DNA of 33,835 bases from positions 1 to 33,835 of IMG/VR virus record IMGVR_UViG_3300034112_000560. One strand, written 5' to 3'. Origin of the DNA: a virus. Positions 1-33,835 of the stretch are shown one piece after another (position 1 is the first letter of the stretch; the number at the start of each line of letters is the position of its first letter). The notes below the pieces were generated by a model. It saw nothing but the letters and a program-made list of their open reading frames with translations. It searched no databases and was not told the origin of the DNA. The position numbers and the translations under genes are program-made.

Positions 1-233
1 CACAGGTCAGCGCAGCCCTTGCGCCGATTGCATGGAGCACAAGCCGGGGCCAGGTTGTGCCGGGAAGTGTCCCCGCCACGGCGGCGCGCCACCAGGTGGT
101 CGAGGGTCAGATGCTCCGGCTGGGCCCCGCACAGATAGCAGGTCCGGCCCCAGTCCTCCAGGATCTGGCGCCGAAACCTGCTTTTGCCTTCCCTGCGCGT
201 GACCAGCACTGAGCCGTCGATCTCGTGGCCCAC
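1..233 (-). CDS. HNH endonuclease, partial (3' end beyond window)
   Basis: The visible 77 codons encode a compact HNH nuclease. A CYLCG knuckle and a later CAPC pair supply four zinc-binding cysteines, and between them lies the HNH core LDHLVARRRGGDTSRHNLAPA, with DH as the catalytic pair and a later Asn. HNH proteins nick or cut DNA; in phages they are often free-standing homing-type nucleases or packaging accessories. The reading frame opens only after the sigma factor's stop codon (258-260), and the only start before the conserved part is GTG at 233, 25 bases downstream of that stop, so it is probably cotranscribed with the sigma gene. The C-terminus runs off the left edge. Whether it helps terminase or is a mobile nuclease cannot be told, because its downstream neighbour is not visible. 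Confidence 0.85.
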   Translation of the reverse strand, partial: MGHEIDGSVLVTRREGKSRFRRQILEDWGRTCYLCGAQPEHLTLDHLVARRRGGDTSRHNLAPACAPCNRRKGCADL

Positions 234-257: not shown

Positions 258-1268
258 CTACTCCCGCAGCATCAATCGAACCTGACTGGCCCAGGCCTTG
301 ACGATCCCCATGGCGGCCGACTCGAGCTGCCGAATCCGCTCCCGGCTGAGCTTCAGATCGGCGCCGATCGCGTTCAGGGTCTGCGGTTCGTGGCCATAGA
401 GCCCGAACCGTCTGACCAGCACCTCGCGCTGGTTCTCGGTCATCCGCGTCATCGCCTGCTCGATGGTTGAGCGGATCATGCCCAGCCGCTCGTTCTCCAT
501 CGCCTCGGCCTCGGGCGTCAGTCCGTCGCCGGCGATCAGCTCCACCAGGCTGCTCCGGTCGGTCTCGCCGCCGCCGACCCGGGCGTCCAGGCTGGCCGGC
601 GCTGCGTTGGCCATCGCGGCCGACTGCAGGCTGGCCTCCGTGACGCCGACCTTCTCCGCCAGCTCCCGCAGGTTCGGCTCGCGGCCGGTGGCCTGATGGA
701 TCTCGCGGGCGATCTTCCGGGCCTTGCGCATCAGATCGGCGGCGTGAACCGGGGAGCGGATCACCCGCGACTGCTGATCCAGCGCTCGCTGCATGGCCTG
801 ACGGATCCACCAGAAGGCGTAGGTGGAGAACTTGTAGCCGCGGCCGGGGTCAAACTTCTCAACGGCCCGCACGAGGCCGATGGTGCCCTCTTGGATCAGG
901 TCAATCTGATCAAGGCCGTCGTGCGGGTAGCGGCGGCTCACGGCCACGACCAGGCGCAGGTTGGCCTCGATCATGCGTTTCTTCGCCCGTTGCCCGGCCC
1001 TCAGGGCCCGGCGCTCATCGGGCGTCAGGTCGGCCCGATCGGCCCGATCGGCTAGGGCGGCGGCAGCCTGGACCTGATTCCCAAGCTGGATTTCCTCGGC
1101 AGGCGTCAGCAGCGGCACGCGACCGATGCTGGCCAGATAGCTCTGCATGTGTGGTGTGGCAGGTGTGGATGGGGTCTTACGCTGCTGCCTTGCCGGCGCC
1201 TCACCAGGAATCCGGTCCGCGGTCAGACCTGCGTCATCGCAGGAGGTAGCAGCCGCCCCGCCCGTCAT
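258..1268 (-). CDS. Sigma-70 family RNA polymerase sigma factor (group 2/3-like), phage-borne
   Basis: This is a complete 336-residue sigma factor that would redirect RNA polymerase to a chosen promoter set. Region 1.2 begins near residue 41 (MQSYLASIGRVPLLTPAEEI). Region 2 spans about 95-165, with DLIQEGTIGLVRAVEKFD (core binding) and GYKFSTYAFWWIRQAMQRA (-10 recognition and melting). Region 3 covers about 170-250. Region 4.2 has the helix-turn-helix with LSRERIRQLE near 308-317. There is no region 1.1; residues 1-40 are a low-complexity extension. Wording is closest to cyanobacterial group 2/3 factors rather than to diverged phage factors such as T4 gp55. The ATG at 1268 shares ATGA with the stop of the preceding small ORF, which supports this start over the internal Met41. 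Its position after the lysis genes argues for phage ownership. A role in late or host-takeover transcription is inference. Confidence 0.93.
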   Translation of the reverse strand: MTGGAAATSCDDAGLTADRIPGEAPARQQRKTPSTPATPHMQSYLASIGRVPLLTPAEEIQLGNQVQAAAALADRADRADLTPDERRALRAGQRAKKRMIEANLRLVVAVSRRYPHDGLDQIDLIQEGTIGLVRAVEKFDPGRGYKFSTYAFWWIRQAMQRALDQQSRVIRSPVHAADLMRKARKIAREIHQATGREPNLRELAEKVGVTEASLQSAAMANAAPASLDARVGGGETDRSSLVELIAGDGLTPEAEAMENERLGMIRSTIEQAMTRMTENQREVLVRRFGLYGHEPQTLNAIGADLKLSRERIRQLESAAMGIVKAWASQVRLMLRE

Positions 1269-1432
1269 GGTTCCGGCTGCAGCATGTTCAGCATCCGATC
1301 GATCTCAGCCACGCGCGAGGTGGTGCCGCGAGGGTTGGCGGAGACCAGCATGTCGCGGCGGGTCTCGAGTAGCAGGCGCAGGCGGTCGCGCTCGTGTTGA
1401 GCGCCGATCTGCATGGCCGAATAGGGTTCCAT
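1265..1432 (-). CDS. Small helical protein coupled to the sigma factor
   Basis: A 55-residue ORF starting at the ATG at 1432, with AGGG about 9 bases upstream. A longer version from 1471 has no ribosome site and adds a low-complexity head. The product is charged and almost wholly helical, with RDRLRLLLETRRDMLVSA followed by SRVAEIDRMLNML, and has no membrane segment or cysteine. Its stop overlaps the sigma factor start by four bases (ATGA), so the two are probably translated together. I do not recognise the family. A regulator or partner of the sigma factor is possible from the coupling alone, but it could equally be an ordinary small late phage protein. Confidence 0.6.
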   Translation of the reverse strand: MEPYSAMQIGAQHERDRLRLLLETRRDMLVSANPRGTTSRVAEIDRMLNMLQPEP

Positions 1433-1621
1433 GCCAACGACCCTACGCTGGGATGCTGCCCTGCCGCCCATAAATGTGCCAGTCGCGCCGCTGTCCCAGA
1501 GTTGTCCGCCTTGATGCGATGTGGGCCATGGTGCTACCGGATCGCATCCGCCTGACGCCAGATACCTGGCAGCTGCTGGTGTGGCTGCACCAATATCAGG
1601 TCAGCCCGGATCGACCAGCCC
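1433..1621. other. Gap between lysis and sigma modules
   Basis: This 189-base stretch separates the endolysin stop from the sigma/HNH group and is the largest break in the left part of the late transcript. On the minus strand I see no intrinsic terminator with a T tract and no convincing -35/-10 pair. On the plus strand there is one short ORF, described separately. A promoter for the sigma genes could lie here but the sequence alone does not show it. Confidence 0.4.
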
Positions 1622-1635
1622 TCACCGCGGCTTGA
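1519..1635 (+). CDS. Doubtful 38-residue ORF on the opposite strand
   Basis: The only plus-strand reading frame in the window that does not simply mirror a minus-strand gene. It encodes a protein-like segment, LPDRIRLTPDTWQLLVWLHQ, with a plausible amphipathic helix, begins at ATG 1519 (or ATG 1528) and ends 14 bases inside the 3' end of the convergent endolysin gene. No clear ribosome site precedes it. It may be a real micro-gene, a remnant of a longer gene, or chance; confidence is low. Confidence 0.25.
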   Translation: MWAMVLPDRIRLTPDTWQLLVWLHQYQVSPDRPALTAA

Positions 1636-2785
1636 CCAGCAGCGCCCATCCAGTCCCGGGCCCATCGGCCTCCCATCTCCGGAGCCAGTTCTTTCTTGAG
1701 TAGCGAATGCCGGCGCCGTTCGAGTGGTTCACGTAGCCGCCGGCGACCATGTTGGCCTCGCCGTTGGGGTCGTTCATCACGATCGCTTCCGGTGTGAAGC
1801 CGATGCACAGCGTCCAATGGCCGCCGCCGGTGGGGGCCTTCACGGGGCCCTGGTGCAGCCAGCCAACACCGACGGGGCGGCCGGCCAGGATCTCGGCCTC
1901 CAGCAGCCCCACGGCGGCATTGGTGACGAATCTGGCGTCCAGATCCAGGGAGCGCAGAGCGCGGATCTGGGCCTGGCTGTCGGTCGTGTCGCCGAACTTC
2001 GCGCGGATGGCGTTGTAGGCGTCGTCGTTCCGCACCCGCCCATAGGACGCCGCGATCATGGCGCTGGTCGAGCTGAAGCACTCGCGGTAACCGGTGCCGC
2101 TGGTGTTGTCGTTCTGGCTGAAGTACTGGACCCTCAGGATCTTTTCGGTCGGACGCTGGGTCTCGCCCCACAGATTCGCCTCGGCATCCCGCCGCCGCCG
2201 CAGCCCCGCTTCGCTGGGCCCGCCTGGGTTGACGTAGAGCCTCATCGCGGCTGGCACCGCTGGCCAGTCGCGGTCCCGCAGGACTCGGGTGATGGTCTCA
2301 AAGCCATCGGCGCCATAGAACGCTGGACCGACGTTGTAGCCGAACGAGATGATCGCCGCCTGCTGCCGGGCCGACATCTGACGCCAGGTCGGGATCGACC
2401 GCGCCAGTCCGCCGGCGACGGTGAACCGCACGAACGTGTCAAGCATCTGATCGGCGACCCCCTGGGTGATGGTGTCGCCCGGCTTGACCTTCGTCCCGTC
2501 GAAGTGGGTGGTGTTGCCCCAGCCGATGGTCCACGGCTCGCCGCCAGTCTCAGGGTCGGGGTAGGCCTTGAGCTGGCACCCCTCAAACTCCTTGATCACC
2601 GGCAGGGCGAGCTTCACCGCTGGATCGTCGGCTGGCTTCGGCAGCGGGGCCGCCCGGAACAGCTCGAGGAACCTGGCGAGCTGATCAGGCATCAGCTGCT
2701 CATGCAGCCAGTTCCAGGCCGCGGCCTGATGTGGCTCCGGCGGGTTCGGGGTGAACCGGGCGGCGTCGATCAGCGTGCCGCTCAT
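1622..2785 (-). CDS. Endolysin: GH24 lysozyme plus C39-like peptidase
   Basis: A 387-residue lysis enzyme with two likely catalytic parts. Residues about 55-205 match the T4-lysozyme/GH24 muramidase fold: the catalytic Glu in KEFEGCQLKAY (E68), Asp in YPDPETGG (D77) and Thr in WTIGWGNT (T86) align with the T4 E11/D20/T26 triad, with a three-residue insertion before TIG. Residues about 215-385 resemble the C39-like (papain-fold) peptidase family, with Cys236 in GYRECFSSTSAM, His323 in GGHWTLCIGF and Asp339 in VMNDPNGE. The enzyme would cut both glycan strands and peptide stems of peptidoglycan. No signal peptide is visible, so export should need a holin. The start at 2785 overlaps the stop of the upstream small membrane protein as ATGA. 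Confidence 0.9.
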   Translation of the reverse strand: MSGTLIDAARFTPNPPEPHQAAAWNWLHEQLMPDQLARFLELFRAAPLPKPADDPAVKLALPVIKEFEGCQLKAYPDPETGGEPWTIGWGNTTHFDGTKVKPGDTITQGVADQMLDTFVRFTVAGGLARSIPTWRQMSARQQAAIISFGYNVGPAFYGADGFETITRVLRDRDWPAVPAAMRLYVNPGGPSEAGLRRRRDAEANLWGETQRPTEKILRVQYFSQNDNTSGTGYRECFSSTSAMIAASYGRVRNDDAYNAIRAKFGDTTDSQAQIRALRSLDLDARFVTNAAVGLLEAEILAGRPVGVGWLHQGPVKAPTGGGHWTLCIGFTPEAIVMNDPNGEANMVAGGYVNHSNGAGIRYSRKNWLRRWEADGPGTGWALLVKPR

Positions 2786-9403: not shown

Positions 9404-9783
9404 CAGACCGTCCCGCTGATGGCGTTGAAGACCACCGAGACCTGGCAGCTGACCACGTCGCCGACGCTGGTGGAGATGCCGGTGTTCTGGAACAGGACGG
9501 GCCCGCGGATGTTGCGGTCGAGCAGGATCAGCTCCAGGTCGCGGATGGTGTCGTCGGCCGTGATCTGCTGCTGCAGCAGCTGGCTGACGGGGCTGCTGCG
9601 GTCATAGAGCAGGGTCATGGACCCGGAGTAGGCCCGCAGTCCGTAGACGTAGCTGCGGGTGGTGTCACCCAGGGCGGTGTCCTCCGGGGTCTCGGAGGAC
9701 AGCTGTAGCGAGATGTCGCGGGCCTTGGCGATCGCGATGCCGTCCAGGCGCACCTCGGCGTCGCGTGAGGTTAGGACGGCCAT
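9403..9783 (-). CDS. Tail-tube-like structural protein
   Basis: A 126-residue protein with the pattern of small tail-tube proteins: LTSRDAEVRLDGIAIAKAR, then ETPEDTALGDTTRSYVYGL, SGSMTLLYD and a closing VGDVVSCQVSVVFNAISG. This is a second tube-fold protein in addition to the main tube gene at 20056-21252, which sits in the canonical place. It may form a distal tail ring or an adaptor to the fibre. No Shine-Dalgarno sequence is evident before the ATG; the 42-base gap upstream is C-rich and holds one copy of an 11-base element shared with the fibre gene's leader. Confidence 0.72.
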   Translation of the reverse strand: MAVLTSRDAEVRLDGIAIAKARDISLQLSSETPEDTALGDTTRSYVYGLRAYSGSMTLLYDRSSPVSQLLQQQITADDTIRDLELILLDRNIRGPVLFQNTGISTSVGDVVSCQVSVVFNAISGTV

Positions 9784-9807: not shown

Positions 9808-9818
9808 AGGGTAGCGGG
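9808..9818 (-). promoter_or_regulatory. Repeated intergenic 11-mer, copy 2 (possible promoter element)
   Basis: Minus-strand CCCGCTACCCT, identical to the element at 8290-8300 and at nearly the same distance (24 bases) from the next start codon. A related CCGCTAGCAT lies in the gap before the gene at 24386-24721. It could be a -10-type element or simply a leader sequence; no -35 match is visible. Confidence 0.3.
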
Positions 9819-9984: not shown

Positions 9985-10205
9985 CGTTTCTCACCTCCAT
10001 GGCAAATGTAAAGAGCTGAAGTCATGCTCATAGGGATTAGCGTTTTCCCGACCGGGACCAATGTTGTGGATCGTCTTGTTTCACCAGTTGGCTTGCAGTG
10101 AGTTCGCAGATAAGCATTGCCTGCCTCATGCAGCAGTAGCACTGCAGCTAGGCCAACAGTTGCCCCAACCATCAAAACAACGGCAAAGGTCATTTCCCTA
10201 TCCAT
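9975..10205 (-). CDS. Small single-TM protein
   Basis: A 76-residue protein starting at the ATG at 10205 (TGATG overlap with the previous stop). Residues about 6-27 (TFAVVLMVGATVGLAAVLLL) form one membrane helix. The remaining 48 residues are polar, with TLVPVGKTLIPM and two cysteines (CKPTGE and YICHGGEKRW) that could form a disulfide or bind a ligand. The base composition of its second half is lower in GC than its neighbours. Function unknown; a membrane protein in a small-gene cassette of this kind could affect superinfection or host physiology, but nothing in the sequence proves this. Confidence 0.7.
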   Translation of the reverse strand: MDREMTFAVVLMVGATVGLAAVLLLHEAGNAYLRTHCKPTGETRRSTTLVPVGKTLIPMSMTSALYICHGGEKRWN

Positions 10206-10453
10206 CAGACCCGCTCCTCGAAGCGCATGTGAGCCACTACCTTGTTGATCAGCGCCAGCGGCACCTTCGGTGACCTCGGCACCCAGCGCCTCGAGGCCCA
10301 GACCTGCGCGACAGGATCCCACTCGGCGATCTGGTCGAGCAGCGCCCGCGTCCGGCTTCGGCGGTGGAAGCGGACCAGGTTGGGATTGCGGCTGAAGATT
10401 GGATCCTGGGTGACCGTCCACCCATCGCCGTGGTAGAGGATGTGCGGGGCCAT
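10205..10453 (-). CDS. Hypothetical basic 82-residue protein
   Basis: Starts at the ATG at 10453 in a TGATG overlap with the previous stop; a longer reading frame upstream only shadows that gene. The product, opening with MAPHILYHGDGWTV, is basic (RFHRRSRTRALLDQIAEW, RRWVPRSPKVPLALI) and has neither a membrane helix nor a cysteine. A nucleic-acid-binding role would fit the charge but no motif confirms it. I do not recognise the family. Confidence 0.65.
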   Translation of the reverse strand: MAPHILYHGDGWTVTQDPIFSRNPNLVRFHRRSRTRALLDQIAEWDPVAQVWASRRWVPRSPKVPLALINKVVAHMRFEERV

Positions 10454-10635
10454 CACCCCACCCTCCCCCGCCGCTGACGCCGCCGAAGCCACATCCCAAC
10501 CCGCACCGCAACCACCAGCGGCCACAGGGCCCCAGCGAGCAGGGCGGCGAGCCATTCGCCGGGCTCGCGGCATTCATGGGGGCGCACGACGCTCATCGCG
10601 GTGAAGGCGCCGGCCCAGGCGTAGATCTCAAGCAT
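10453..10635 (-). CDS. Small membrane protein with basic tail
   Basis: A 60-residue protein from the ATG at 10635, which overlaps the previous stop by eight bases. It has a short hydrophobic N-terminal segment (about 4-17), a PHECREPGEW linker and a strong membrane helix (about 28-50, LAALLAGALWPLVVAVRVGM), then an Arg-rich tail RRRQRRGR that would sit in the cytoplasm by the positive-inside rule. The CREPGEW linker before the helix resembles small phage membrane proteins I have seen annotated as hypothetical. Function unknown; a holin-like role is possible but it is 7 kb from the endolysin. Confidence 0.7.
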   Translation of the reverse strand: MLEIYAWAGAFTAMSVVRPHECREPGEWLAALLAGALWPLVVAVRVGMWLRRRQRRGRVG

Positions 10636-10996
10636 TGGGGGCCTCGGGTTGGGGGATGGAATCGGCTTGCAGCCAGTCGCCCGCCAGTCGCCTAGCCCAA
10701 ACCGTGCCGTCATTGCAGGCTGCGTACAGGACGTTATTGGCATAGGTCATCGCCGTCACCACGCGGGCCGGGGCCGGCGCAGGCGGCGGGGTCTGCTGGG
10801 CGGCTCGGGCGGCTCGGGGGACTCGGGGGACTCGGGGGACTCTTTCCGACCACCACGGCTGGCCGGGGACGATGCAGTCGTATTTGGCAAAGTGACCGTT
10901 CGTCGGATGGCTGCCACGTCGGGTCATGATCCGCACAAACCCATCCCCATCCGCATCCTCCGCCGTCGGCAGGCGATCAGTGATCCATTCGCTCAT
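10628..10996 (-). CDS. Hypothetical protein with DUF551-like start and VPR repeats
   Basis: A 122-residue protein. The opening SEWITDRLPTAEDADGDGF resembles the N-terminal WI-x-x-RLP motif of DUF551-type phage proteins, in which the remainder usually carries a short beta segment with a DG-x-V strand; here FVRIMTRR follows and PGQPWW ends that part. A low-complexity linker (RVPRVPRVPRAARAA, then a Pro/Ala run) leads to a C-terminal beta-hairpin-like VLYAACNDGTVWARRL. No ribosome site is obvious before the ATG at 10996. It is the first of five overlapping small genes. Confidence 0.65.
   Translation of the reverse strand: MSEWITDRLPTAEDADGDGFVRIMTRRGSHPTNGHFAKYDCIVPGQPWWSERVPRVPRVPRAARAAQQTPPPAPAPARVVTAMTYANNVLYAACNDGTVWARRLAGDWLQADSIPQPEAPNA
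10801..10842. repeat. 9-bp tandem repeat inside a coding region
   Basis: About four and a half copies of a 9-base unit: two of CGGCTCGGG, then two of GGACTCGGG and part of a third. It encodes the VPR/AAR linker of the 122-residue protein. Because the unit is a multiple of three, copy number can change without breaking the frame. Confidence 0.8.
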
Positions 10997-30690: not shown

Positions 30691-31265
30691 CAGGTGAACC
30701 TCACATAGAGCGTCCGGCCGCTGCCCCTGCCGGCGGCGATGTTCTCAGCTTCCTCCTCCCGCGCCACCTCCGCCTTCAGCTGGGCCTCCAGCGTCAGCAG
30801 CTCGCTCAGCTCATATCGCTTCACCTGCCTCGTGCCGATCCGGTACTCCTGCGCCCCGCCGCCGGCAATCACAGCCCGGATCGCGGCCTGGCATGCCTCC
30901 AGATCCTTCCGCGCCTGGCTGCGGGTGTCGATCGCACCGGCGGCCGTCAGGCTCGGCAGCACCATGAACGATCCCGACCCGATCGTGTAGGCGTCTGCCG
31001 CCAGCGTCGCCACTGACTGCCAGCTGCCGCGCTGCCCAGCCGGGAACAGGCTGGTCAGCGCAGCGCTCACCGTTGAATCCCATCCATCGCCAGATGCCGC
31101 GCCGGTTGACTGGGTGGCGCCGGTGGCGACTGGGAACCGGATGTAGGTCGTCAGCGCCCAGCCGGCGCCGGCCGTGATCGGGCCGCCGGTCGGCGTTGCA
31201 GCCGATGCCGTGCCCCAGATCAGGGTGTCGCCCGGCCGGACCTCTGCGGGGAAACTTGCGGTCAT
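30690..31265 (-). CDS. Head-tail joining protein, gpW-like with N-terminal beta domain
   Basis: A 191-residue protein between terL and portal, where lambda has gene W. The first 110 residues are a beta domain (RPGDTLIWGTASA, GAGWALTTYIRF, GSGSFMVLPSL) common in this family. The last 75 are helical: ARKDLEACQAAIRAVI, QEYRIGTRQVKRYELSELLT, LEAQLKAEVAREEEAENIAA, with the gpW-type Y-x-I-G/A-x-R-x-V/L strand followed by a long helix. gpW-like proteins bind the portal ring and prepare it for FII. The ATG at 31265 is in TGATG with the terL stop; a GTG one codon earlier is possible. No ribosome site is obvious. Confidence 0.78.
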   Translation of the reverse strand: MTASFPAEVRPGDTLIWGTASAATPTGGPITAGAGWALTTYIRFPVATGATQSTGAASGDGWDSTVSAALTSLFPAGQRGSWQSVATLAADAYTIGSGSFMVLPSLTAAGAIDTRSQARKDLEACQAAIRAVIAGGGAQEYRIGTRQVKRYELSELLTLEAQLKAEVAREEEAENIAAGRGSGRTLYVRFT

Positions 31266-33163
31266 CACCAGTTCGTCACGAACCCGCCGCGGCGCCGGGG
31301 CTGCCTGGACTCTAGCGGGGCAGTGCCGAGCGGCTCAGGCGCGGGCGCGGGGGCAGCGGGCTTCAGTTGCCGTTCGATCTGGTCCCACATCGTGGCGCGG
31401 TGGTAGCGACGCTTGATCAGCTCGAGCACCGCCAGGGCGTAGACCGTCAGGTCCAGCGGCTCGTTGCGGGCTCCCGCCGGCTTCTGCCACTCCAGCACCT
31501 GGAACCCCTTGACCGATCTCGGCACCAGCCGCTCGCAGGTCAGGCCCCGCAGGTAGTCCTCTGTCGTGCCGGTGCCGAAGTGGATCCCGCCAGGGCCGGT
31601 CACGTCGCGCTTGAGCCGGGCGTAGATCGTCCGCTTGAGGCTGTCGGTGCCGACCATGTAGAGCGTCACGCCGCCCTTGATGGTCTCGCCCTTCGTGTTC
31701 ACGTCCACCTTCTTGCCCTTGCTGATCGCCACCGCCGACCTGGTGCTGCTGCCCTTCAGGGCCACCACGCCCTCGCGGGATCGCTCGCGGCAGTAGTTGT
31801 AGGCCTCGTGGGTGAAATGGCCGCCGGTGTCAACGCCCGCGGCCTTGATCGTCATCGTGCCACCGGCTGCCGTGGGCCATTGCGTCCGGCGGATGCTGTC
31901 GATCTGCTCCCACGCCTCCGGATCGTCCGGTGTCAGCTCGACCTTCTGGTGCCAGATGCGCCACATCTCGTCGCCGCGGCCGAACCCCCAGACAGTCGTT
32001 TCCAGCCAGGTGTCCTGCACGTCGACAGTCTGGACCAGCAGTAGTACGCCCTCTGGGCAGGTGCCGTCCTCGTGGGCGCCGTCCAACCGGCTCATCAGGC
32101 CCTCGGCGCTGACCGCTGCGATCGCGGCATCCTCCCAGGCCTCGGCCGCGCGCTTGTTCACCCAGCCCTTCAGCAGTAGAGGGTCGTCCTTCGCCCGCAG
32201 GAACTCGTCGCGGATCTTCTCCCAGCTCAGCCAGCCGTAGGGGGCGTACCACCCGGGCAGGTGGAATCCAGCCGTCTCGCCATCACCCTTCGCCGTCGGC
32301 CGCCAGATGCCGCCGTCCAGCATGGAGCCCTTGTTGTGCTGCCCGATGCGCTCACCACAGGCCGGGCACTGGCACCAGACCTCGCCGTCGGGCCGATCCC
32401 AGACCATGTGATCCCGCCACACCAGCACCTCGTGGGCGCCGCAGCACGGCATCAGGGCCGCGTACCGGCGCCGGTCGCTGCGTTCCTCGTACTCCCACGT
32501 GATCCGGCAGGTGCCGCGCGTGCCGGGCGTGCTGGTGATCAGGCTCTTGCGGTCCGGGAAGTTGGTCTGACGGGCCTCGGCGTTCTCCAGTGGGTCGCCC
32601 TTGTCATCCATCTCCAGCGGCAAGCTCGAGACCTCGTCGGCCCAAACGTTCTGAGCCGGCATGCCCTGGGCCGCGCTGCCGCTGTTGCCGCCGATGATGC
32701 TCAGCAGCATGTCGCCCTGGAACTCCTTCAGGAACATCGCGTTGGCGGCATCCCGCGACTTGCTGCTGATCTGCTTCGCCTTGACCGCTGGGCTGTCCTC
32801 GAACAGTGGAGTCAGGCGCTGACGCACCTGGCGTTTGGCGAATGACTCGGTCGGGAACATCGCCAGGAACGGCGCCGGATCCATGGCGATCGTTCGTCCC
32901 AGCCAGTTCAGCCCGCACTCGGTCTTGGCGAGTTGGGAGCCGAACAGCAGCACAACTCGTCGAATCCGGCGCTCACGCGGGCTCAGCAGGTCCATCGGCT
33001 CGCGCAGGTAGGGCACGCGATCCGTGCGCCACAGTCCCGGCTCAGAGCTGCTGCGGCTGGTCAGGTGCCGCTCTCGGTCCGCCCACTCGCTGACGGTCAG
33101 GTCCAGCGGGGGCTGCAGGGCCTCGATCAGGGCCTCGCGGTAGATCAGGGCGCCGTCAGGCAT
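31265..33163 (-). CDS. Terminase large subunit, GpA-like
   Basis: A 632-residue DNA-packaging ATPase and nuclease. The P-loop is the GpA-type GSQLAKTE (residues 75-82). A Walker-B-like NVWADEVSSL (172-181) and a STPGTRGT coupling motif (211-218) follow. A zinc knuckle is suggested by MPCCG (239-242) and CQCPAC (264-269). The RNase-H-like nuclease has Asp381 in LVQTVDVQDTW and Asp445 in AAGVDTGGHFTHEAYNYC. The C-terminus carries LDLTVYALAVLELIKRRYH, then a Pro/Ala-rich tail that would contact the portal. GpA-type terminases usually cut at a cos site. The ATG at 33163 overlaps the terS stop by eight bases. Confidence 0.95.
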   Translation of the reverse strand: MPDGALIYREALIEALQPPLDLTVSEWADRERHLTSRSSSEPGLWRTDRVPYLREPMDLLSPRERRIRRVVLLFGSQLAKTECGLNWLGRTIAMDPAPFLAMFPTESFAKRQVRQRLTPLFEDSPAVKAKQISSKSRDAANAMFLKEFQGDMLLSIIGGNSGSAAQGMPAQNVWADEVSSLPLEMDDKGDPLENAEARQTNFPDRKSLITSTPGTRGTCRITWEYEERSDRRRYAALMPCCGAHEVLVWRDHMVWDRPDGEVWCQCPACGERIGQHNKGSMLDGGIWRPTAKGDGETAGFHLPGWYAPYGWLSWEKIRDEFLRAKDDPLLLKGWVNKRAAEAWEDAAIAAVSAEGLMSRLDGAHEDGTCPEGVLLLVQTVDVQDTWLETTVWGFGRGDEMWRIWHQKVELTPDDPEAWEQIDSIRRTQWPTAAGGTMTIKAAGVDTGGHFTHEAYNYCRERSREGVVALKGSSTRSAVAISKGKKVDVNTKGETIKGGVTLYMVGTDSLKRTIYARLKRDVTGPGGIHFGTGTTEDYLRGLTCERLVPRSVKGFQVLEWQKPAGARNEPLDLTVYALAVLELIKRRYHRATMWDQIERQLKPAAPAPAPEPLGTAPLESRQPRRRGGFVTNW

Positions 33164-33692: not shown

Positions 33693-33835
33693 GCCTTATT
33701 GCGACTTGAATGGGCTTAAGTCAGGCTAAAGACCCGATAAAGGCGGCGGGGGGATGGGGGCAAAGTGCTTGGTATGACTAGGTTTTAGCCAGTTCGGGGT
33801 CACCCGCTAGGCGAAGATCGCGGGTCGAAAATAAC
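33693..33835. promoter_or_regulatory. Leader upstream of terS with inverted repeats
   Basis: A 143-base non-coding stretch, more AT-rich than the genes. GGCTAAAGACC (33724-33734) and GGTTTTAGCC (33781-33790) form a 10-bp inverted repeat apart from one extra base, with 46 bases between the arms. A second short pair, ACCCGC (33802-33807) and GCGGGT (33820-33825), follows. Such a place could hold the terS-binding (cos or pac) site or a late promoter; no -35/-10 pair stands out. Confidence 0.4.

Follow-up and report, generated by a model that had tools for sequence, protein, structure and literature searches.

The sigma gene and its neighbours

The window, by which we mean the entire 33,835-bp stretch analysed here, is an IMG/VR virus record without end repeats. 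Its late region runs along the minus strand from terS (33692) through terL, the portal, tape measure and tail genes to the lysozyme (Table 1), and beyond the lysozyme, on the same strand, come a small gene (orf55), a sigma factor of 336 amino acids and an HNH endonuclease. The extent of the sigma ORF agrees with the original prediction, which had set the gene directly behind the lysis genes, coupled to a small ORF and followed by an HNH gene. Coupling was confirmed, as orf55 overlaps the sigma start by ATGA, its best reading being 55 rather than 68 amino acids, and the HNH gene is indeed present, albeit cut by the window edge. The order lysozyme, small ORF, sigma, HNH stands as well; the word "directly" does not, because an ORF on the opposite strand intervenes.

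Table 1. Features of the window discussed in the text, with positions, strand and the evidence for each.
Feature	Position	Strand	Evidence
HNH endonuclease, cut by window edge	3..233	-	Pfam PF01844; 77/106 aa in window
Sigma-70 factor, group-2-like	258..1268	-	Pfam; TIGR02997 best model; dN/dS; tree; AlphaFold2 model
orf55, small protein before sigma	1265..1432	-	dN/dS 0.086 against L005; homologues in clade
Putative -10 element TAGGGT of the orf55-sigma unit	1440..1445	-	Phylogenetic footprint
Conserved block GGGACAG..GACTGGCACA	1475..1497	-	Footprint; 29-31 nt upstream of the -10-like element
Opposite-strand small ORF (mini-gene), 53 aa	1474..1635	+	Homologues; dN/dS 0.15 against L005
Lysozyme (endolysin), last gene of late region proper	1622..2785	-	Pfam PF00959; PHROG endolysin families
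Terminase large subunit, start of late region	31265..33163	-	Pfam GpA ATPase and nuclease; phrog_15

No match to orf55 was found in Pfam or PHROG. A homologue precedes the sigma gene in every member of the window's clade (described below) whose contig reaches that far, and orf55 is weakly similar to gp28 of phage S-CBS3, which itself abuts a sigma gene. The HNH protein is full length (106 amino acids) in the close relative L005, and the window and L005 copies differ with a dN/dS of 0.036; an HNH gene adjoins sigma in S-CBS1, KBS2A and other phages too. The opposite-strand mini-gene shows zero non-synonymous differences from that of another close relative, L007, and its true start may be Met16, at 1519. 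With the mini-gene lying in between, sigma cannot simply be counted as the late gene that follows the lysozyme. In L012, a methylase-like and a helicase-like gene on the opposite strand occupy the gap between lysozyme and orf55, so the sigma block forms an independent unit and not the last part of the late operon. At the distal end of this block, in both lineages, the strand opposite to sigma encodes a 145-aa protein with weak helix-turn-helix matches (L005 11322-11759 and L012 12094-12531, both on the minus strand of their records), a candidate regulator.

All four Pfam domains of the sigma factor scored above their gathering thresholds, with region 1.2 at 35 bits (cut-off 22), region 2 at 81, region 3 at 43 and region 4 at 44, so the claim of a complete factor with regions 1.2 to 4 intact holds. 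The best NCBIfam model was TIGR02997, the cyanobacterial RpoD/SigA family, at 311.9 bits, short of its curated cut-off of 384.5. Region 1.1 is absent; the N-terminal 40 amino acids match no family and are predicted to be disordered. These first 40 codons are constrained too (dN/dS 0.056), which supports a start at Met1. Over the whole gene we counted 45 synonymous and 5 non-synonymous differences from L005 (dN/dS 0.034), and sigma is under strong purifying selection. An AlphaFold2 model (pLDDT 75.7, pTM 0.42) has the helices of sigma2, sigma3 and sigma4 and leaves residues 1-36 disordered, and its best Foldseek matches were primary sigma factors in initiation complexes (TM 0.35). As the pTM and TM values make the domain arrangement unreliable, we took the model for secondary structure only.

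The sigma factors of T4 (gp55) and SPO1 are strongly diverged, and the late sigma of the T4 gp55 type is reduced and needs co-activators. Like them, the window sigma is phage-encoded and would use the host core polymerase. It is unlike them, as originally proposed, in keeping regions 1.2 to 4 and the RpoD-like contacts of host factors.

Phage relatives, host loci and phylogeny

Scans of IMG/VR yielded four contigs (L005, L006, L007, L011) whose DNA is 93-96% identical to the window through the end of the late region, and four others (L008, L009, L010, L012) whose sigma protein is 52-56% identical. Lysozyme, orf55, sigma and HNH follow in this order on one strand wherever the relatives' contigs reach far enough, and the same sigma block is present in nine phage contigs. 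Among genomes of 84,980 species, the best 80 host loci encode sigma factors that are all cyanobacterial, mostly from records titled Synechococcus, Cyanobium or Prochlorococcus, and at most about 50% identical to that of the window. None of these 80 loci has a neighbouring window gene or this HNH beside it.

The phylogeny that had been proposed as a check placed sigma in a fully supported phage clade. A 77-factor tree that included the sigma sets of four picocyanobacterial genomes grouped the window with L005, L008, L009 and L012 (99/100) outside every host family, on a long branch. A smaller tree from which the longest branches had been removed returned the same clade at 100/100, beside the sigmas of S-CBS1, S-CBS3, KBS2A and relatives (88/84); judging by this last grouping, the clade may belong to an old cyanosiphophage sigma lineage. 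With host families labelled by their NCBIfam scores, the approximately unbiased (AU) test rejected forced membership in the SigA (p 0.0004), SigB/D-type (p 1.5e-5) and SigC-type (p 0.007) families, and thus orthology to any of the three, while grouping with the L270 family (p 0.07) or with the two nearest host families together (p 0.22) was not rejected. Those nearest factors come from Cyanobium and Synechococcus and make up two group 2 families for which NCBIfam has no name (L261 and L266 types); they are 46-50% identical to the window sigma and have the same region architecture. They retain Thr440, K597 and R599, whereas the window clade, which falls outside both families, has all three changed.

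Group 3 sigmas (SigF and its kin) lack region 1.2, so the presence of this region in the window rules that class out. Together, the tree and the AU results indicate a group-2-like sigma of old origin, not a recent capture. Of the captured host group 2/3 factor that had been expected, the group-2-like architecture, the cyanobacterial affinity (TIGR02997) and the phage location were confirmed; group 3 was eliminated, and a simple capture does not agree with a long-branched clade outside every host family, no closer than about 50% to any of the best host matches. A host chromosomal flank, or a recent host orthologue carried along by chance, would account for family membership and for nothing beyond it. 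With the block repeated in nine phage contigs, the best host matches standing beside neither phage genes nor this HNH, and membership in the three named host families rejected, we regard such an origin as practically untenable. Indeed, neither of the two findings that the original prediction had named as speaking against a phage gene was made: the same sigma-HNH pair without a phage did not occur among the best 80 host loci, and the tree did not place sigma as the orthologue of a core host factor.

A second set of viral sigmas (L018, L019, L021, L024, L025, L042, L044, L051, L052 and L062) nests beside the host SigB/D-type family (99/93), and picocyanobacterial viruses therefore seem to have acquired sigma genes at least twice. 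One contig filed among the viruses, L087, encodes a sigma (10001-10831) that falls into the host L270-type family with 100/100 support; this gene is either a recent capture or part of a host fragment. A 27-kb contig in the assembly of Cyanobium sp. FGCU6 (L276) carries a long-branched phage-like sigma and may be a prophage or a phage contig within the host assembly.

GC content (66%), sigma type and phage relatives point to a picocyanobacterial host. All records of the lineage are partial. In four partial genomes of the lineage (G005-G008), the early regions carry genes for an exonuclease, an Erf-like annealing protein, helicases and a resolvase. An integrase was not detected in any of the four, which leaves the suggested role in lysogeny unsupported.

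The junction in other cyanosiphophages

A sigma gene at the late/early junction has already been published for S-CBS1, S-CBS3, KBS2A, S-LBS1 and freshwater 30-kb cyanophages. In S-CBS1 and S-CBS3 it is described as a "group 2 RNA polymerase sigma factor", rpsD4 (gp27 and gp29, respectively). Both phages have the terminase (terL 64-65%), the portal and several late genes in common with the window, and in both the junction sigma comes after the endolysin, with an HNH gene close by as well as a mini-gene on the opposite strand. Their sigmas are 42% and 39% identical to that of the window, lie on the strand opposite to the late genes and have Cys or Ser at position 440 (residues are numbered as in E. 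coli RpoD), where the window clade has Gln. KBS-S-2A (KBS2A) is otherwise a different siphophage; its RpoD, 35% identical and on the opposite strand, likewise lies behind the endolysin, beside an HNH (51% identical) and the same mini-gene. S-LBS1, a freshwater cyanophage of 60.2% GC with a sigma gene and an integrase (PMC6157547), and six freshwater cyanophages with complete genomes of 30-31 kb and a sigma gene (PMC9878933) have TIGR02997-type sigmas, likened here to that of the window from the papers' descriptions. The integrase of S-LBS1 distinguishes it from the four partial genomes of the window lineage.

The window sigma thus shares the placement of the RpsD4 kind, at the end of a siphophage late block behind endolysin and mini-gene, but not its strand. 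Nine contigs of the clade carry sigma on the late strand; the gene runs the other way in S-CBS1, S-CBS3, KBS2A and ten further contigs with a sigma gene. Elsewhere among cyanosiphophages it closes the early block and faces the late one. A sigma-HNH block of the S-CBS1 kind that had simply been inverted does not fit the arrangement: counted outward from the lysozyme, the genes keep their order, yet their strands differ. The mini-gene follows the endolysin in the window, L012, S-CBS1 (gp25), KBS2A (CPKG_00009) and S-CBS3 (gp25). The window copy matches that of L012, which in turn matches those of S-CBS1, KBS2A and S-CBS3 (0/500 shuffles reached each score); direct matches between the window and these three phages are weak. 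Judged from these alignments, the late/early junction is homologous across all five. The window sigma represents a known cyanosiphophage gene in a diverged form and a changed orientation; new, and confined to its clade, is the late-strand, coupled orf55-sigma-HNH unit with its putative promoter, behind a conserved opposite-strand mini-gene.

Promoter contacts, promoters and proposed role

The main -10 and -35 contact residues of the window sigma match those of RpoD, with the exception of position 440, a -12 contact in RpoD. Gln occupies this position in all eight readable clade members and in only 5 of 86 other phage factors, whereas host factors have Thr (99/105) or Asn (4/105); such a change could mean altered promoter specificity. 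Region 4.2 retains R584, E585, R586, R588 and Q589. By contrast, the window clade has Ile in place of K597, which 100 of 105 host factors retain, and positions 593, 596 and 599 of the window sigma also differ from the E. coli activator surface. In E. coli RpoD this region-4 surface is used by activators and by the alpha C-terminal domain, and our argument about the activator patch is carried over from there by analogy.

A footprint across the window, L008, L009 and L012 outlines a putative promoter for the orf55-sigma unit. The -10-like hexamer of the window, which reads TAGGTT in the other three (TAGGKT overall), precedes the first in-frame ATG of orf55 by 7 nt and the second by 25 nt. The conserved block upstream of it, ending in GGCACA, is common to all four in otherwise poorly conserved DNA and is a candidate activator or operator site. 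The scores of local alignments upstream of orf55 between the window and L008, L009 and L012 were reached by 4, 3 and 32 of 500 shuffles, respectively, and we consider the footprint modest. Between lysozyme and orf55 no terminator was detected, and sigma may instead be transcribed by late read-through alone, with no dedicated promoter.

Starts in the lineage are preceded at 15-40 nt by TANNNT more often than in shuffles (26 versus 9.8, mostly with GC before it), as counted with a simple codon-usage gene caller in few upstream regions (72). The same element, with the same GC preference, is enriched in host contigs (149 versus 59). Nothing therefore points to a -10 class peculiar to the phage, whose starts have the GCTANNNT element of the host. 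A phage-specific -10 motif was not found in upstream regions of the lineage, and scans for sigma-70 promoter and terminator consensus gave no excess over shuffles. In the window, a strong terminator-like hairpin with a T run (8341-8298, minus strand) is directly followed by CCGCTACCCT before the fibre gene, and CCGCTACCCT at 9816 (minus strand) precedes the gene at 9783; the sister genome G007 has both elements at the same places and G005 has one.

The sigma gene is complete, under purifying selection, flanked by phage genes only and on the late strand within the orf55-sigma-HNH unit; it is real, phage-borne and probably functional. On balance, we favour a phage-adapted, group-2-like factor that is made from its own promoter and competes with SigA at host-type promoters. 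Expressed from the TAGGKT element and its upstream block, and possibly by late read-through as well, the protein would bind the host core RNA polymerase as a competitor of SigA and read promoters of the TANNNT type. Its altered region-4 surface would render the polymerase less responsive to host activators; phage starts, having the same -10 element, would then be favoured over regulated host genes. The small protein orf55 may tune the factor. In line with this reading, cyanophage sigmas introduced into S. elongatus reportedly altered carbon metabolism and held back growth (Sawa 2019, as cited in PMC10452541 and PMC9878933). Redirection of the host polymerase, as originally envisaged, finds no support, given the host-like promoter-contact residues and the lack of a phage-specific -10 motif in the upstream regions of the lineage.

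A stage-specific switch in the manner of T4 gp55 or SPO1 gp28, in which Gln440 would alter -12 recognition and direct the polymerase to phage-only middle or late promoters, is in our judgement unlikely, if a serious contender. The invariance of Gln440 in the readable clade members, where 103 of 105 host factors have Thr or Asn, would fit such a switch, as would CCGCTACCCT in front of two late genes and the position of sigma at the end of the early block elsewhere in cyanosiphophages. However, CCGCTACCCT conforms to the host-type GCTANNNT pattern, which is equally strong in host contigs, and all -10 and -35 contacts other than 440 are host-like. We find it quite improbable that the factor is outright blind to activators, with host promoter recognition kept, the regulator surface of region 4 lost and a private -12 contact; if it were, transcription would be freed from host light, nutrient or circadian regulators, and a phage-specific promoter class would not be needed.

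Very doubtful, to our minds, is a gene for reprogramming the host, whose main targets would be the stress or metabolic genes of group 2 sigmas while SigA served the phage genes. The group-2-like architecture is consistent with it, and so is the report, given in PMC10452541 with reference to Sawa 2019, that the RpsD4 of S-CBS3 raised acetyl-CoA 1.9-fold when expressed in S. elongatus. The altered activator surface, on the other hand, speaks against service at activated host promoters.

Our literature search found no transcription programme of a small cyanosiphophage with a sigma gene. Such genes recur in these phages, and the window lineage lends itself to comparison with the others: here a factor of this kind lies on the other strand, has a -12 residue peculiar to it and an altered region-4 surface, and adjoins a defined small partner, orf55. 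The purpose of a host-like phage sigma is thereby reduced to two questions, namely how it ranks promoters relative to SigA and how it responds to host activators.

Several other elements were seen in the lineage. A near-palindromic repeat (TGACCCGTAGGGGTTACATT in G007, CGTAACGGTGGGGTTACAGT in G008) precedes several early genes, overlapping a -10-like hexamer (L293, minus strand, 9279, 8511, 7480, 7059, 6274 and 5746; L306, plus strand, 3595, 4812 and 6026), and resembles an operator controlling a phage early regulon. When a weight matrix for a phage promoter class was built from this repeat, it degenerated on iteration and was dropped. A conserved early protein of about 190 amino acids with a MALISGT..AD-like start (L292 4274-4849, L306 2923-3510, L293 14024-14620), which has no PHROG match, resembles calcium-binding repeat proteins by eye. 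Comparison of the DNA upstream of terS for a common late promoter gave, instead, lineage-specific short repeats of the TTGAACC, TTTAAGC or CTAAGG types (window 33693-33835, L171-L250), often after a CCCC(T)ACCCC stretch, a possible TerS-binding or packaging site.
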